Assembly (NCBI RefSeq): GCF_019931275.1
Contig: NZ_JAIOTY010000001.1
Coordinates: 372,001 to 436,000, forward strand
Source of the DNA: Nitratidesulfovibrio sp. SRB-5
Lineage (GTDB): Bacteria; Desulfobacterota; Desulfovibrionia; Desulfovibrionales; Desulfovibrionaceae
Length of the DNA stretch: 64,000 nt
Reading direction: 5' to 3'
A model generated the notes under the pieces. That model did no database searches. It saw only the letters and a list, made by a program, of their open reading frames with translations, and had not been told where the DNA came from. Below, piece by piece: positions 44,091-51,506 of this stretch. The translations under genes and the position numbers were made by a program. How positions within the stretch are numbered: position 1 is the stretch's first letter; the number at the start of each line of letters is the position of its first letter.

Positions 44091-44171
44091 CTATCGGCTG
44101 GGTCTGCCCGGCCCGTCCTATCTGTTGGTCCGGCCAGGTCCGTCCTATCTGTTGGGGCGGTCAAGTCCGCC
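44091..44171 (-). repeat. 27-bp tandem repeat across the dciA-like stop codon, each unit ending in TAG
   Basis: Three imperfect 27-bp units on the minus strand (44171-44145, 44144-44118, 44117-44091) each end in an in-frame TAG; the first two share CCAACAGATAG. The first contains the gene's stop codon, so the end of the gene has been copied twice downstream. Confidence 0.8.
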
Positions 44172-44681
44172 CTGCCTGTGGGTTCCGTTCCGCCCGGCGG
44201 CCCCGCCCGGCTTCGCGGCGGCATCCCCGATCTCGCGGAACATGCGCACGTAGCTGGCATAGGCGCGGCCCACGGGCGATTCCGGGTCGAAGGCGCCCAG
44301 CAGCCCGCCCAGATTGTCCGGCCTGGGGGGCACGCGCGGCGGGGGCGCGCTGCGCTCCACGCGCACCTCGTCCAGCGGGGTGCGGCGTTGCAGCAGGTGC
44401 ACCTCCACCCGTTCGAAGTACGGCCCGTCGGACACGTCGTCCATGAAGGCGTTGACCCGCTCCAGGATTTCCGGCGTCAGGAAGGTCAGGTCCTGCATGG
44501 CCATGTTGTCCTCCGCCCCCACCAGCAGGATGCGCTTGCGGTGGCCCAGCGGGTAGGCCAGCACGGCGATGTCCGTGCCCATGACCATGTCCCAGTTCTC
44601 CCACAGGCGCACGAGGCGCATCCGCTCCGGTGCGCCGCGCCGTTCCAGAAAGCCGCGCAGGGCCTCGCCGATGGTCTTCAC
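44145..44681 (-). CDS. DciA/DUF721 family protein
   Basis: A 178-residue protein of the DUF721 group, whose DciA members help load the replicative helicase in bacteria that lack DnaC. The DUF721 core is VRLWENWDMVMGTDIAVLAYP followed by a strand-helix with ILLVGAEDNMAMQDLTFL (about 20-85). The tail from about 115 on is Pro/Arg-rich and probably disordered. The start is GTG at 44681, five bases after GGAGG; no ATG start fits. It faces away from the chemoreceptor. The 3' end lies in a 27-bp repeat. Confidence 0.8.
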   Translation of the reverse strand: MKTIGEALRGFLERRGAPERMRLVRLWENWDMVMGTDIAVLAYPLGHRKRILLVGAEDNMAMQDLTFLTPEILERVNAFMDDVSDGPYFERVEVHLLQRRTPLDEVRVERSAPPPRVPPRPDNLGGLLGAFDPESPVGRAYASYVRMFREIGDAAAKPGGAAGRNGTHRQGGLDRPNR

Positions 44682-45276
44682 GACGACCTCCGGCGGGAGC
44701 CCGCCGTGCCCGCTGCGCCCTTGGTGAGGGACGCGCGGGACGCGCGGGTTGCGTGAGGATAGCAGGGAAAGCTGATCGTCATGGGCGCGGTGTAGCACGT
44801 CCGGCCCGGAAACGCACCGGGCGCGAAAGGGGGGTGGCCGGTGCGGCATGAAGGGAGGCGACCAGATGCTTCGTCCCGGCCATGCGTTGCCGCAACGCAA
44901 ACGCCACATGCGCCAGCGCGTGGTGAAAACACTGAAACCGCCACATGTTACGGAAACGTGACGCCGCCGTAACCTGATCTTCGTCCGCGTGCCCCATGAA
45001 TACGCCAGCCGCCGGGGAGGGTGGCGCGCCCCGATCGTCGTACGTGCGTCTGCCGTGCGAGCGCCTGGCCGACACCTGCCGACGGGCGGATGCGGAGCGC
45101 CCGGACGCAGTGCATTCCACAGGACGGGGGCCGCCCGGGGGGGCGCCGTTGCGCGCGCCTCGCGCACGTCCCGCCTTGCGTTCCCCGCCCCGGCCCGCAT
45201 CCACGCCGTACGGGTTCATCCCCCGGCATACTTGCCACGGGCATGCTTTCCGCTGGCATACCTCAAGGACGGGCGC
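44682..45276. other. Divergent 595-base gap between the dciA-like gene and a chemoreceptor gene
   Basis: No coding region is supported. The notable feature is the triple 7-bp direct repeat at 44945-44973. The distance of about 300 bases from there to the chemoreceptor start implies a long leader or a second promoter that I could not identify. Confidence 0.65.
44945..44973 (+). promoter_or_regulatory. Pho-box-like triple direct repeat upstream of a chemoreceptor
   Basis: ATGTTAC-N4-ACGTGAC-N4-CCGTAAC: three 7-bp units with 11-bp period, the geometry of PhoB boxes. The last unit and following bases (CCGTAACCTG) are identical to the last unit upstream of pstS. Consensus differs from the E. coli CTGTCAT. 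Confidence 0.45.
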
Positions 45277-47796
45277 ATGTTTTCCACCCTTTCGTTCCGC
45301 ACCAAGCTCATCGCGGGCTCGCTGGTCATGGTGCTGGTGACCATGGCGGCCATGCTGGTCACCAGCCTGGTGGACGCCCGGCGCGGCTACCTTGCGCAGG
45401 GGCGTGCCTCGTTGCACAACGTTTCGCAGATACTCATGGAATCCGCCCGGTTTCAGGATACGCTGAACCGCAACAAGATCGGCTCCGACCTCAAGCTGAT
45501 GCAGTTGCAGTTCGGCCTGGCCGGATTTCCCATCCCCGAGATTTTCATGGAGGTGGAGGCCGACCTGCGCGACGCCGACACCGGCCAGCGGGTCAAGGCC
45601 ACCCTGCCCGGCTTCAAGCTGGGGTCCGCCTACCTGCATCAGGGCACCGACCTCGTGGACCGCATCCGCGAACTGGCCGGGGTGGGGGCATCGGTGCTGC
45701 AACTGCACGAAGGGCGGCTGGTGCGCGTCAGTTCCAGCGTGGCCGATCCTTCCGGCTCCGCCCGCTGGACATTCCTCGGCAAGGAGCATCCCGTGACGGC
45801 GGCGGTGCTGTCCGGCAACGGCTTCACCGGCATGCTCAAGGTGGGCGGCCAGTGGAACCTGGCCGCCTACGCCCCGGTAAAAGGCATGGACGGCAGCGAG
45901 ATACTGGGCGCTGTGGAAGTGGCCCGGCCCCTGCTGACGCCGGAATTCGCCGCCGCCGTGGTGCGCCACAACGTGGGCGGCAAGGGGTATTCCCTTGCCT
46001 TCGACGGGGCGGGCATCATCCTCATCCATCCCGACCCGGCCATGGTGGGCCGCAACGTCTTCGACCTGCCGTGGGGCGCGGCGCTGAAGCAGGGCGAGGG
46101 GGCGCAGGGCCGCAATGATCCCGCTGCCCGCGCGGATGCGAACGGTTCCCGCGTGCTCGCCTGCACCATCAACGGCGAGGAGTACGAAGCCTGCGCCGAC
46201 CGTTACGCCCCGTGGGACGTCACCTTCGTCACCACGGTCAGCCGCGACGAACTCATGGACGGCGTGGGCGAGCGGCTGTGGCGCGGCGCGGCCATTGCCG
46301 CCGCCGTGGCCCTGCCCGTGGCCGCTCTGGTCATCTGGCTGATGGTGCGCCAGCTGATGGTGCCCATGCAGCGGCTGGCCACCCTGGCCCAGCAGGTGGC
46401 GCGCGGCAACTTCGACTACACCTTCGACTACGCGGCGGACGACACCATCGGGGCCACGGTGCGCGCCGTGCAGGCCATGGTGGGCGAACTGCGCATGCGC
46501 CTGGGCTTCAGTCAGGGGGTGCTGGACGGGGTGGTGGTGCCCTGCGTGGTGGTGGACCTTGCCAATGACATCACCCACGTCAACGCAGAGGCGCTGGCCG
46601 TGCTGCGGCGCGGGGGCGCCCCCGCGCAATGGCTGGGCCGCCAACTGGGCGAGCTGGTGTACGGCAGCGCCGCCGATGCCGCCCGTCCGGTGCTGACCCG
46701 GCGCAGCATGGAACGGCGCGATCGGGTGGCCGAGGACGTGGTGCTGGACCCGCAGGCCGACGGGCGCGAGGTGGTGCTGCACATGGTGGCCACACCCATC
46801 TACGACCTGGACGGCGAACTGATGGGCGCCATCTCGTTGTGGGTGGACCTGACGCACGAGCGCGCCCAGCATGCCCGGCTGGACGCCCAGAACGCGGTCA
46901 TCGCCGCCACAGCGCGCGAGGCGGAGGACATCGCCCGCCGGGTGGCCTCGTCGGCCCACGAACTGGCCGAGCAGGTGGCCCATTCCAGCGAGGGGGCCGC
47001 CCGCCAGCTGGCCCGCGTGGACGAGGTGACCGCCGCCATGGACCGCATGAACCGGACCGTGGCCGAGGTTGGCCGACGCGCCGCGCTGGCCGTGGACATG
47101 GCCGCCTCCACCATGCGGGTGGCCGAGGATGGCCGCGACGTGGTGCGCGCCTCCATGGACGTGATGCACAAGGTGCACGGACAGGTGGAGCGGTTGCAGG
47201 AAAACGTGGCGGAACTGGGGCGCGAGGCGGAAGGCATAGGCCAGATCATGGGCGTCATCAGCGACATTGCCGACCAGACCAACCTGCTGGCGCTGAACGC
47301 GGCCATCGAGGCCGCACGGGCCGGAGAGGCCGGGCGCGGCTTTGCCGTGGTTGCCGACGAGGTGCGCAAGCTGGCGGAAAAGACCATGAACGCCACCGGC
47401 CAGGTGGGCGAGCGCATCCGGGCCATCCAGCGGGCCACGCGCGGCTTTGTGGACAGCACCGCCACCGTGGCCGGGGCGGTGCGCGAAAGCGACGCGCTGG
47501 CCACCCGCTCCGGCGGGGCGCTGGACGACATCCTGGCCCGCATCGGCGATTCCGGCGGCGAGGTGCGGGCCATCGCCGCCATGGCAGAGGCGCAGGCGCG
47601 CGGCGGTGCGGACGTGGAACGCGCCGTGGCCGAGGTGGACGCCATCGCCCGCGAAACCGCGCAGGGCATGGCGGAATCGGCCCATGCCGTGACCGGGCTT
47701 TCGCGCCTGGCCGGTGAACTGCAACGCGCCATGGACGGCATGGCCTGCGATGGTGATGGCGCAACCCACTGCGATGACGGGGAATCCTTGGTGTGA
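45277..47796 (+). CDS. Methyl-accepting chemotaxis protein (Cache sensor, HAMP, PAS)
   Basis: An 839-residue chemoreceptor. TM1 is at 9-30; a large periplasmic double-Cache-type domain (about 35-340) is followed by TM2 (about 345-365), HAMP, a PAS domain (about 410-525) and the receptor signalling domain with tip [20 protein letters not shown] and [17 protein letters not shown]. The C-terminus ends without an obvious CheR/CheB pentapeptide. The ATG at 45277 is chosen because AAGGA lies eight bases upstream and the TM1 follows at once. It precedes pstSCA in the same direction, with a Pho-box-like element upstream of each, so phosphate chemotaxis is one testable idea. Confidence 0.92.
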
Positions 47797-47844
47797 CGCC
47801 GTACGTGCGCGGCGTGCGGCACGGGAAAATGGCGCGACACAGGA

Positions 47845-47873
47845 TTGTAACGGTCGTCACAACAGGCCGTAAC
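47845..47873 (+). promoter_or_regulatory. Pho-box-like element upstream of pstS
   Basis: TTGTAAC-N4-GTCACAA-N4-CCGTAAC, 7-bp units at 11-bp period; the middle unit is inverted relative to the others (TTGTAAC-N4-GTCACAA is itself a near-dyad). It lies 82 bases before the pstS start. pst operons are the classic PhoB target. Confidence 0.5.
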
Positions 47874-47955
47874 CTGCGCTGGCTACTTCTTGTGGCGCGT
47901 TGACGCTGAACCGCACACAATTACCCCCAACCGGGAATCGTCAGGGAGGCTTGCA

Positions 47956-48990
47956 ATGAAGTCGATCAAGAAAGTGGCGCTGGCCGCCGCGCTCGTGCTG
48001 TCGCTGGCCGGTGTGGCCGAAGCCCGCGACCAGGTCCGCATCGTGGGCTCCAGCACCGTGTATCCCTTCTCCAGCGCCGTGGCCGAGGAATTCGGCGCCA
48101 CCAACAAGCAGTTCAAGTCGCCCGTGGTCGAATCCACCGGTTCCGGCGGCGGGCACAAGCTGTTCTACGCGGGCGTGGGCCCCGATACCCCGGACATCAC
48201 CAACTCTTCCCGCCGCATGAAGGTCGAGGAACTGGAAACCAACATCAAGAACGGTGTCACCGAGATCACCGAAGCCAAGATCGGCTTCGACGGCATCGTC
48301 ATCGCCCAGAACATCGGCAACGCCGACATGGACCTTTCGCTGAAGGACCTGGCCCTGGCCGTGCTGGAGGAAGTGCCCGTGGACGGCAAGCTGGCGCCCA
48401 ACCCCTACAAGACCTGGAAGCAGCTGAACCCGGCCCTGCCCGACCGCAAGATCGTCATCTACGGCCCGCCCGCCACCTCCGGCACCCGCGACGCCTTCAT
48501 CGAAATGGTGGTAGAAAAGTTCACCGGCAAGGACGAGACCTTCAAGGCCGTGCTGGGCAAGGATGCCGCGCAGTACAAGAAGATCCGCCAGGACGGCCCC
48601 TACGTGCCCGCCGGTGAAAACGACAACCTCATCGTGCAGAAGCTGACCAAGGACACCGAGGCCGTGGGCATCTTCGGCTACAGCTTCCTGGCCGAGAACA
48701 AGGACCGCATCAAGGGCTGCACCGTGGTCGGCAACGCGCCCACCTTCGATGCCATTTCCTCGGGCAAGTACCCCATCTCCCGCGCGCTGTTCTTCTACGT
48801 GAAGGACGCCCACGTGGGTAAGATTCCCGGCCTGAAGGAATACGTGGAACTGTTCATGTCCGAAAAGATGATCGGCGATGCCGGCTACCTGAAGACCATC
48901 GGGCTCATTCCGCTGCCCGCCGCCGAACGCGAAAAGGTGCGCAAGGACGTGACCGGCTTCAAGAAGCTGACCGCCGAAGACCTGAAGTAG
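47956..48990 (+). CDS. pstS: Phosphate ABC transporter substrate-binding protein
   Basis: A 344-residue periplasmic phosphate-binding protein. A signal peptide (residues 1-23, ending near V-A-E-A) is followed by the phosphate-binding signatures VGSSTVYPFSSAV and ESTGSGGG and by YGPPATSGTRDAF. These supply the Ser/Thr/Arg/Asp contacts of PstS. GGGAGG precedes the ATG by six bases. The following 91-base gap before pstC contains two perfect hairpins that could stabilise the pstS transcript. Confidence 0.96.
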   Translation: MKSIKKVALAAALVLSLAGVAEARDQVRIVGSSTVYPFSSAVAEEFGATNKQFKSPVVESTGSGGGHKLFYAGVGPDTPDITNSSRRMKVEELETNIKNGVTEITEAKIGFDGIVIAQNIGNADMDLSLKDLALAVLEEVPVDGKLAPNPYKTWKQLNPALPDRKIVIYGPPATSGTRDAFIEMVVEKFTGKDETFKAVLGKDAAQYKKIRQDGPYVPAGENDNLIVQKLTKDTEAVGIFGYSFLAENKDRIKGCTVVGNAPTFDAISSGKYPISRALFFYVKDAHVGKIPGLKEYVELFMSEKMIGDAGYLKTIGLIPLPAAEREKVRKDVTGFKKLTAEDLK

Positions 48991-49081: not shown

Positions 49082-50326
49082 ATGACCATGGGAAGCGCGT
49101 TGCAGATGGCCCTGATGGCCATATTGCCGCTTTCGGTGCTGGCGTACATGGCAGCCCGCCGCAGGGCGGGGGCCGACAATGCGCGGGGCACGGAATTCCA
49201 TTCGCCGCTCGTGTACTACGGGTGGTATTCGTGCCTGTGGGTGGCCCTGCCGTCCATGGGGCTGTTCGTGCTGGCGGGGCTGCTGCACCTGCTGCACATC
49301 GCCACCGTGCCCGGCCCTGTGCTGGCGGGCGGGGGCGTGGCGCTGGCCGCGTTCGGCCTAGTGTGGTCGCAACGGGCCATCGGGCGCGACTTCCGCGCCA
49401 TCCAACGGGTGGAAGGCGTGGTGCGCTGGGCGCTCATCGGGGCCTCGTGCATTTCCATCCTCATCACCATCGGCATCGTGGTCTCGGTGGTGTTCGAGGC
49501 CATGCAGTTCTTCCGGCTGGTGAACCTGTGGGACTTCCTGACCGGCACCAAGTGGAGCCCGGAAACGGCCTTCCTGATTTCCTCGGGCCGGGCCGACGGC
49601 AACGTGGCCACGCCGGAATTCGGTTCGCTGCCGCTGTTCGCGGGCACCTTCTACATCACCGCAGTGGCCATGTTGGTGGCCGTGCCCATGGGGCTGTTCG
49701 CGGCGGTGTACATGGCCGAATACGCCAGCAAGCGGGTGCGCCGCATCGCCAAGCCCGCGCTGGAAATCCTGGCGGGCATCCCCACCGTGGTCTACGGGTT
49801 CTTCGCGGCCATCACGGTCAGCCCGTTCATCGTGCACCTGGCGGAACTGGTGGGGCTGGAGGCGGAATACACCAACGCCCTCGCTCCCGGTCTGGTGATG
49901 GGGGTGATGATCATTCCCCTTGTGTCCTCGCTGTCGGACGACGTGATCAACGCCGTGCCGCAGGCCATGCGCGAAGGTTCGTACGCGCTGGGCGCCACCA
50001 CGTCCGAGACCATCCGCAAGGTGGTGCTGCCCGCCGCCCTGCCGGGCGTGGTTTCCGCCGTGCTGCTGGCCGTGTCGCGCGCGGTGGGCGAAACCATGAT
50101 CGTGGTCATGGCCGCCGGGCTCATGCCCAACCTGACGTGGAACCCGCTGAAGAGCATGACCACGGTTACCGTGAGCATCGTGGATTCTCTGACCGGCGAC
50201 CAGGCCTTCGACAGCCCGCAGACCCTTTCGGCCTTCGGGCTGGGCCTTGTGCTGCTGGTGCTGACGCTGGTGCTCAACGTGGTGTCGCTGGTGGTCATCC
50301 GCAAGTTCCGCGAACAGTACGAGTAG
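49082..50326 (+). CDS. pstC: Phosphate ABC transporter permease PstC
   Basis: A 414-residue permease, about 100 residues longer than E. coli PstC because of an N-terminal extension with three membrane helices (residues 5-25, 47-75, 78-95). The transport core is normal, with FAGTFYITAVAMLVAVPMGL and the ATPase-contact EAA loop at MREGSYALGATTSETIRKVVLPAA. The extended form occurs in other proteobacteria. The ribosome site is weak (CGGGAACGC); a second ATG at 49088 is possible. It lies 10 bases before pstA. Confidence 0.94.
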   Translation: MTMGSALQMALMAILPLSVLAYMAARRRAGADNARGTEFHSPLVYYGWYSCLWVALPSMGLFVLAGLLHLLHIATVPGPVLAGGGVALAAFGLVWSQRAIGRDFRAIQRVEGVVRWALIGASCISILITIGIVVSVVFEAMQFFRLVNLWDFLTGTKWSPETAFLISSGRADGNVATPEFGSLPLFAGTFYITAVAMLVAVPMGLFAAVYMAEYASKRVRRIAKPALEILAGIPTVVYGFFAAITVSPFIVHLAELVGLEAEYTNALAPGLVMGVMIIPLVSSLSDDVINAVPQAMREGSYALGATTSETIRKVVLPAALPGVVSAVLLAVSRAVGETMIVVMAAGLMPNLTWNPLKSMTTVTVSIVDSLTGDQAFDSPQTLSAFGLGLVLLVLTLVLNVVSLVVIRKFREQYE

Positions 50327-50336
50327 GGGGGGCAGC

Positions 50337-51506
50337 ATGGCATCATTGTTCGGCATCGACGAAAAGAAGCTGCTGCGCAAGCGGCGCGCGGCGGAAACGC
50401 GCTTTCGCCTGTGCGCCATATCCGCGCTGTTTCTGGCCGGGGCGTTTCTGGTGTTCTTTCTGTTCGACATCGGGCGCAAGGGCTACCCCGCCTTCCAGCA
50501 GGCGGAACTGCTGGTGGCCGTGAACTACACGGTCGAGGCGCACGACAACCCCTACGCCGCCATGGACCCGGATACGGTGCAGGTCGTCTCGCGCAGCTTC
50601 ACCCGGCTCATCCCGTCCATGATGGCCGAGAACAGCAGGCTCATCGGCACCACGCAAGAGGTGTGGGTGCTGGCCAGCGCAGACACCGACCAGTACCTGA
50701 AGGGGCGCCCCAACCGGCTGAAGCCCAGGCATCAGGCGCTGGTGGACACCATGCGCCAGGAAGGCAAGGCACGGCTGGCCTTCAACTGGGGGTTCTTCGA
50801 GTCGGGCGATTCCAAGCTGCCGGAACTGGCGGGCATCCGCGCGGCGGCCATCGGCTCGCTGTACGTGCTGCTGATAACCCTGGCCATCAGCTTTCCCGTG
50901 GGGGTGATGTGCGCGGTGTACCTGGAGGAATTTGCGCCGGACAACCGGCTGACCCAGATCATCGAGGTGAACATCAACAACCTGGCGGCCATCCCGTCCA
51001 TCCTGTACGGGCTGCTGGGGCTGGCCATCTTCATCAACTTCATGGGGGTGGCCCGGTCGTCGGCCCTGGTGGGCGGGCTTACCCTGTCGCTGATGACCCT
51101 GCCCGCCATCATCATCAGCACGCGGGCGGCCATCCGGTCCATACCCCCGTCCATCCGCGAGGCGGCGCTGGCCCTTGGGGCAACGCCGTTGCAGGTGGTG
51201 TGGCACCACGTGCTGCCGTTGTCGCTGCCGGGCATCCTGACCGGCACCATCATCGGCCTGGCCCGCGCCATGGGCGAAACCGCGCCCCTGCTCATCGTGG
51301 GCATGATGGCCTACATCCCGGAAGCGCCGGAAAACTTCAACAGCGCGGCCACGGTGCTGCCCGCCCAGATATTCACCTGGGCGTCGGATTCGCAGCGGGC
51401 CTTTTCCGAGCGCACCGCGGCGGGCATTCTGGTGCTGCTGGTGCTGCTGCTGGGCATGAACGCCACGGCCATCTGGCTGCGCAACAAGTATGAGCGCAAG
51501 TGGTAG
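50337..51506 (+). CDS. pstA: Phosphate ABC transporter permease PstA
   Basis: A 389-residue permease with a cytoplasmic N-terminus, one TM helix (about 30-50), a periplasmic loop of roughly 110 residues, then five core helices. The EAA loop is REAALALGATPLQVVWHHVLP. GGGGGG precedes the ATG. Unusually, no pstB or phoU gene follows: a terminator comes 53 bases after the stop, so the ATPase must be encoded elsewhere. Confidence 0.94.
   Translation: MASLFGIDEKKLLRKRRAAETRFRLCAISALFLAGAFLVFFLFDIGRKGYPAFQQAELLVAVNYTVEAHDNPYAAMDPDTVQVVSRSFTRLIPSMMAENSRLIGTTQEVWVLASADTDQYLKGRPNRLKPRHQALVDTMRQEGKARLAFNWGFFESGDSKLPELAGIRAAAIGSLYVLLITLAISFPVGVMCAVYLEEFAPDNRLTQIIEVNINNLAAIPSILYGLLGLAIFINFMGVARSSALVGGLTLSLMTLPAIIISTRAAIRSIPPSIREAALALGATPLQVVWHHVLPLSLPGILTGTIIGLARAMGETAPLLIVGMMAYIPEAPENFNSAATVLPAQIFTWASDSQRAFSERTAAGILVLLVLLLGMNATAIWLRNKYERKW

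Follow-up and report, generated by a model that had tools for sequence, protein, structure and literature searches.

The window analysed here, a stretch of 64,000 nucleotides from Nitratidesulfovibrio sp. SRB-5, contains a chemoreceptor gene followed by genes of a phosphate transporter, and arrays of short repeats lie upstream of the chemoreceptor gene and of pstS, one before each. The chemoreceptor (hereafter MCP; 45277-47796, forward strand) is a protein of 839 amino acids (aa) with a Cache_3-Cache_2 sensor (PF17201, 90.7 bits, cut-off 27.7), a HAMP domain, a PAS domain and an MCP signalling domain (PF00015, 131.5 bits, cut-off 34.6), as assigned by Pfam, and is thus a Cache_3-Cache_2 chemoreceptor; among named relatives, Nitratidesulfovibrio liaohensis, N. 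oxamicus and Desulfovibrio sp. A2 carry close copies of it. The transporter genes, all on the forward strand, are pstS (47956-48990), encoding a PstS-family phosphate-binding protein (TIGR02136, 151.9 bits, below the cut-off of 206.6), pstC (49082-50326), encoding a phosphate permease subunit (TIGR02138, 287.2 bits, cut-off 196.45), and pstA (50337-51506), a second permease subunit gene named from its position and its Pfam domains (DUF3333/BPD_transp_1). A divergent DciA-like gene on the reverse strand (44145-44681; Pfam DciA, 59.8 bits) is the other gene that the repeats upstream of MCP could in principle serve.

Two arrays of PhoB-box type

The initial annotation described two matching triplets of 7-bp repeats, and all six are present in the 7-4-7-4-7 layout: ATGTTAC (44945), ACGTGAC (44956) and CCGTAAC (44967) before MCP, and TTGTAAC (47845), GTCACAA (47856) and CCGTAAC (47867) before pstS, with the shared CCGTAACCTG found at 44967 and 47867. 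The PhoB box of Desulfovibrio vulgaris Hildenborough (regulator DVU1083) is given as (c/t)GT(n)AC in PMC3333781, where the spacer is printed as 4 bp, compared with a register of 6 + 5 bp here. The MCP array (44946-44973, forward strand) reads TGTTAC-N5-CGTGAC-N5-CGTAAC, that is, direct repeats with a period of 11 bp (44946-44951, 44957-44962 and 44968-44973), all three of which match the D. vulgaris unit; it lies 304-331 bp upstream of the MCP start codon.

The pstS array (47835-47873, forward strand) differs in part from its first description. The outer repeats, TTGTAAC and CCGTAAC, hold as units (TGTAAC, 47846-47851; CGTAAC, 47868-47873), but the middle one, GTCACAA, does not: in register it reads TCACAA (47857-47862), fits two of the five fixed positions and varies between relatives, being TCACAA, GCACAA or CTACAA in the genus and in genome G028, where TGTAAC and CGTAAC are kept 22 bp apart. 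A weaker outermost unit, CGACAC (47835-47840), missed in the first reading, lies 11 bp before the next unit and completes a four-slot array of the form 1-2-x-4; several distant genomes have TGTCAC, CGTCAC or TGTAAC in this slot. The exact pair spaced by 22 bp is found at pstS in 13 of 14 genomes, compared with 0.007 expected from shuffles, and an exact adjacent pair at 11 bp in five of the 14; SRB-5 is not among these five, its pstS array containing no exact adjacent pair (at best 9 of 10 positions).

This arrangement resembles the pstS promoter of Escherichia coli (NC_000913), which also has four 11-bp slots with a degenerate third (CTGTCAT, CTGTCAT, CTTACAT and CTGTCAC); in both, the last unit is followed by CTG and, after 10 bp, by a -10-like hexamer, TATTTT in E. 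coli and TACTTC (47884-47889, forward strand) here. By their analogous spacing and, for TACTTC, an alignment of relatives, these hexamers are putative -10 elements. The two promoters differ in the unit, CTGTCA(T/C) in E. coli and (C/T)GTAAC here, and in the weakness of the first unit here. As corrected, the pstS array is evidence that Desulfovibrionales retain a four-slot arrangement similar to the one in the E. coli promoter. A CRP/FNR-like palindrome, TTGTAA-N6-TCACAA, of the HcpR-type consensus, can be drawn through the pstS array; it was rejected because its right half varies among relatives (GCACAA, CTACAA) and the 22-bp direct-repeat register is kept.

The position of the box about 10 bp before a -10 element fits for pstS and for MCP in several genomes of genus g39, most members of which have CATTTT or a similar hexamer 10 bp past the MCP array. 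In an alignment of members of the SRB-5 genus, no -10-like hexamer occurs 10 bp past the MCP array; a conserved CATGAA lies 11 bp beyond the expected -10 position. Directly 3' of the MCP box, a block at 44990-45035 (CCATGAATACGCCAGCCGCCGGGGAGGGTGGCGCG) is near-invariant in the genus, more so than the remaining leader. An RNA element in the leader was considered and rejected, since Rfam yields no match at E up to 1 across 44600-48200, a range that includes the leader and this block. A conserved small open reading frame is likewise unsupported, the leader being gapped at many points among relatives.

The MCP box in orthologs and paralogs

A search of 348 genomes of the order for the sensor domain gave matches with an E value of 1e-50 or lower in 57. 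Orthologs were defined by a score above about 220 bits, at a break in the score distribution, and number 30, or 31 with the SRB-5 protein; partial matches on short contigs (in G064, and the second one in G070) were left out, and two orthologs with 95 and 114 bp of upstream sequence were counted as they fell. Within 450 bp upstream and on the forward strand, 16 of the 31 orthologs have an exact two-unit box, compared with 0.005 expected from dinucleotide shuffles, and 26 have a box with at least 9 of 10 positions (0.81 expected); in the other five, the best box reaches only 7 or 8 positions. Exact boxes within 200 bp are fewer (8/31) because the box sits further off in the SRB-5 genus. Among 20 upstream regions of paralogs, none contains an exact box and one contains a box with 9 of 10 positions.

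Since genomes of the same genus do not count as independent cases, the genus count is the fairer figure. The exact box occurs in five of seven genera, namely g1, to which SRB-5 belongs (8/8 orthologs, its own included), those of G028 and G039, g39 (5/8) and g5 (Pseudodesulfovibrio; 1/11), with G111 and G023 reaching 9 of 10 positions. The weak signal in g5 counts against an order-wide rule. Judged by its conservation across the order and its absence from paralogs, the MCP box is more than chance.

Linkage to phosphate transport genes varies. Of the 31 orthologs, nine are encoded immediately upstream of pstS in the same orientation, five face a pstSCA operon and two are near pstA alone; for the remaining 15 no pst gene was seen, four of these lying in stretches of at most 4 kb. 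Where MCP and pst are separated, as in G058 and G039, MCP carries a box itself, and the start of a PstS-like match is likewise preceded by an exact pair, at 169 and 326 bp. A rival possibility is that the box regulates the dciA-like gene on the opposite strand, which would couple replication to phosphate and make MCP a bystander. The middle and outer units of the MCP array do pair on the other strand as well, but the full three-unit array points to MCP, and among the 31 ortholog loci the dciA-like gene adjoins MCP in the SRB-5 genus only, whereas the box stays with MCP in G028, g39 and G039. We consider regulation of the dciA-like gene by this box very improbable.

Sites across the genome

Without mismatch, the triple YGTNAC-N5-YGTNAC-N5-YGTNAC occurs at three distinct places in the 4.12-Mb genome (11 contigs): the MCP array, C2:53797, which is a GC-rich repetitive stretch, and C2:446200, close to the gene of a PhnS-like binding protein. 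The last of these triples (G000:C2:446200-446227, L091) adjoins the PhnS-like gene (2-aminoethylphosphonate-type, below family cut-offs) and has one mismatch when read toward it.

The exact pair gives 29 rows, at about 18 places, and the reversed pattern 21 rows; the corresponding numbers are 27 and 27 in genome G007 and 19 and 49 in G028. Since the reversed pattern is found about as often or more often, the raw genome count was rejected as proof, and because the count of two-unit sites hardly exceeds that of the reversed pattern, location and conservation alone carry the argument. The expected enrichment near phosphate genes thus stands as to location, with sites before several such genes, but not as to raw count.

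Of the 29 rows, 25 were classified, and the other four (L076, L088, L089 and L092) are overlapping rows of listed sites. Twelve genes of SRB-5 have an exact-pair site within 400 bp before the start. They include phoB (with two sites, and pstB next to it), a PhoU_div gene followed by a PiT-like gene (the PiT-like gene named by eye) and a PhoH-PIN gene. Also among the twelve is a kinase gene, its protein, cut by the locus, having PnpS and PhoR as best families, both below cut-offs; the others are MCP, the genes for an EAL protein and GpsA, an aconitase-like gene (by eye), two genes without a Pfam match, and two genes whose site overlaps the coding sequence of the preceding gene, namely a second dCache chemoreceptor gene and a membrane-protein gene (by eye). 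Seven of the twelve recur with a site in G007 (MCP, phoB, PhoU_div, PhoH, the kinase, EAL and one gene without a Pfam match), as do both genes with overlapping sites. In G028, the kinase gene keeps its site and stands opposite a gene for a PHO4-family transporter, and the EAL gene keeps a site. As a control for location, 7 of the 21 reversed-pattern sites have a same-strand gene start within 400 bp downstream (six distinct genes; one site lies inside another gene), and no phosphate gene was recognised by eye among the N-termini downstream of these seven.

The putative regulator is encoded at L095, a response regulator gene preceded by two boxes and followed by pstB; the best NCBIfam model of its product is PhoB (TIGR02154), at 257.5 bits, below the cut-off of 296.2. 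The pattern might still be chance, or a similar direct repeat of another regulator, as the bare pair occurs at its many places in numbers like those of the reversed pattern, and some of these places are intragenic, for example within a ribosomal-protein cluster (named by eye). Against this stand the conservation of the MCP box with its paralog control, the published binding motif, and the boxes before phoB and phosphate genes, and we regard coincidence or a different regulator as highly unlikely.

SRB-5 has about 44 chemoreceptor genes (45 rows for the signalling domain, of which two share a frame), and only MCP and the second dCache chemoreceptor have an exact pair shortly upstream. The latter is not claimed as a Pho target. 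Its pair (G000:C1:1381474-1381490; L083, L228-L235), 216 bp upstream, shares sequence with the final codons of a MarC-like gene (by eye), so that its conservation, exact in 5 of 8 genus members, is confounded.

Identical copies of CGTAACCTTTCCGTAAC precede the gene for a 459-aa protein without a Pfam or NCBIfam match in SRB-5 (G000:C2:942016-942032, L093) and in G007 (L147/L148), and this gene is a candidate Pho-regulon member. The EAL-domain gene has upstream PhoB-type pairs in SRB-5 (G000:C2:1519705, L098), G007 and G028 (L140/L141, L160), in line with the EAL/HD targets reported for D. vulgaris PhoB.

Regulation, ligand and relation to known systems

The initial reading of the repeats as PhoB boxes that place the chemoreceptor in the phosphate regulon is well supported by the published D. 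vulgaris motif, the conservation upstream of orthologs, the absence from paralogs and the same motif before other phosphate genes, beside which stands the linkage of MCP to pst genes. On this sequence evidence, MCP is predicted, with high probability, to be a member of the Pho regulon. Counting against membership are the raw count of sites, no higher than in the reversed control; the single exact box among 11 orthologs in g5 and the five orthologs overall whose best box has 7 or 8 of 10 positions; the lack of a -10-like hexamer in the SRB-5 genus; the distance of the box from the start codon, above 300 bp; the PhoB candidate scoring below its cut-off; and the second pst operon of D. vulgaris, DVU2667-2663, reported in PMC3333781 to be without the motif.

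PhoB binding, induction, ligand and taxis are what we infer for MCP. When phosphate is scarce, phosphorylated PhoB would bind the three direct 11-bp units before MCP and the four-slot array before pstS, and the bound regulator would activate both genes. Cells probably make the MCP sensor to forage during phosphate starvation, and the receptor would then most likely steer them toward phosphate or a phosphorus source, either through a small anion bound by the outer Cache module or, in the manner of CtpL in Pseudomonas, by reading PstS loaded with phosphate.

An AlphaFold2 model built from 30 sequences covers residues 31-353 (mean pLDDT 85.9) and shows a double Cache domain. Taken as a whole, the model resembles PscC (6mni; Z 15.7, rmsd 4.5, 234 aligned). 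Its outer Cache module is similar to two sensor domains with bound formate, 8py0 (Z 17.8, 151 residues aligned) and 8py1 (Z 17.0, 137 aligned), each with an rmsd of 2.3. A profile search of the PDB recovers the same two domains (E 1e-15 and 7e-16, respectively); the best match of a single-sequence search of the PDB is only at E 0.1. The outer module shares with 8py0 and 8py1 the fold and an R-(S/T)T motif; MCP differs in having two Cache modules and an identity of 15-18%, and likeness of fold does not show the ligand. When 24 of the 31 orthologs are aligned with six paralogs, R150 of the shared motif is present in 24/24 orthologs and 5/6 paralogs, and K114, H121, S139 and E214 in 22-24 of the 24 orthologs versus 0-1 of the six paralogs, so that the pocket may differ. 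The cytoplasmic PAS domain is probably not the conserved sensor, because the g39 orthologs L013 and L015 lose similarity beyond the HAMP region and have shorter open frames, of 703 and 687 aa.

That the MCP ligand is a small anion is a fair guess from the model, which does not separate phosphate from formate. PhoB might therefore control MCP while the ligand is formate or another short carboxylate, starvation merely raising general foraging. The similarity of the outer module to the formate-bound domains and the arginine shared by all 24 orthologs agree with a carboxylate, as does the finding, reported in PMC9864684, that phosphate deficiency in P. aeruginosa increases further receptors to which no phosphate role is assigned. 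The ortholog-specific residues, the point that a shared fold does not reveal the ligand and the linkage of MCP to pstSCA in 14 of the 31 orthologs speak the other way, and we hold a carboxylate ligand to be a real but, on balance, doubtful possibility.

As for phosphate taxis, the chances that taxis toward phosphate or phosphorus is the job of MCP appear to us evenly balanced. The more specific proposal, that sulfate reducers have in MCP their receptor for phosphate taxis, a double-Cache protein controlled by PhoB in several genera, linked to pstS and sensing phosphate directly (with K114, H121 and R150 as candidate residues) or via PstS, is tentative and somewhat short of an even chance. If it is true, phosphate taxis would have arisen more than once, by the wiring of different sensors to PhoB. 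The ligands of most chemoreceptors are unknown, and a conserved starvation switch points the ligand of MCP toward the phosphorus economy and singles out a specific gene for testing. How sulfate reducers live in phosphate-poor sediments also depends in part on whether motile anaerobes forage for phosphate.

The PhoB (DVU1083) regulon of D. vulgaris is similar in its (c/t)GT(n)AC direct repeats and in its reported targets, which include PhoU, pstSCA and EAL/HD genes (PMC3333781). At low phosphate, PhoB of D. vulgaris activates the high-affinity phosphate transport genes, as measured on pstS (DVU2477), and its site upstream of phoB has been validated (both reported in PMC6456213). The difference lies in the chemoreceptor: the accessible text of PMC3333781 names none as a target, though a legend that covers the DVU1083 targets (presumably the legend of Figure 6) explains the abbreviation 'MCP', and a D. 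vulgaris chemoreceptor may already be depicted there under the control of one among several regulators. In D. alaskensis, the chemoreceptor Dde_3561 appears in a low-phosphate fitness table (PMC5193443). Pho-controlled chemoreceptors are already known; a literature search for such a receptor or for phosphate taxis in Desulfovibrio yielded no report that we recognised.

The closest precedent comes from Pseudomonas aeruginosa, where phosphate is bound by the chemoreceptor CtpH and PstS-phosphate is sensed by a second one, CtpL; both are used for phosphate taxis (as reported in PMC4926252), and the expression of both is lowered by phosphate (as reported in PMC9864684). The likeness to MCP would lie in regulation and possibly in role; the receptor described here is a Cache_3-Cache_2 protein, encoded beside pstS.
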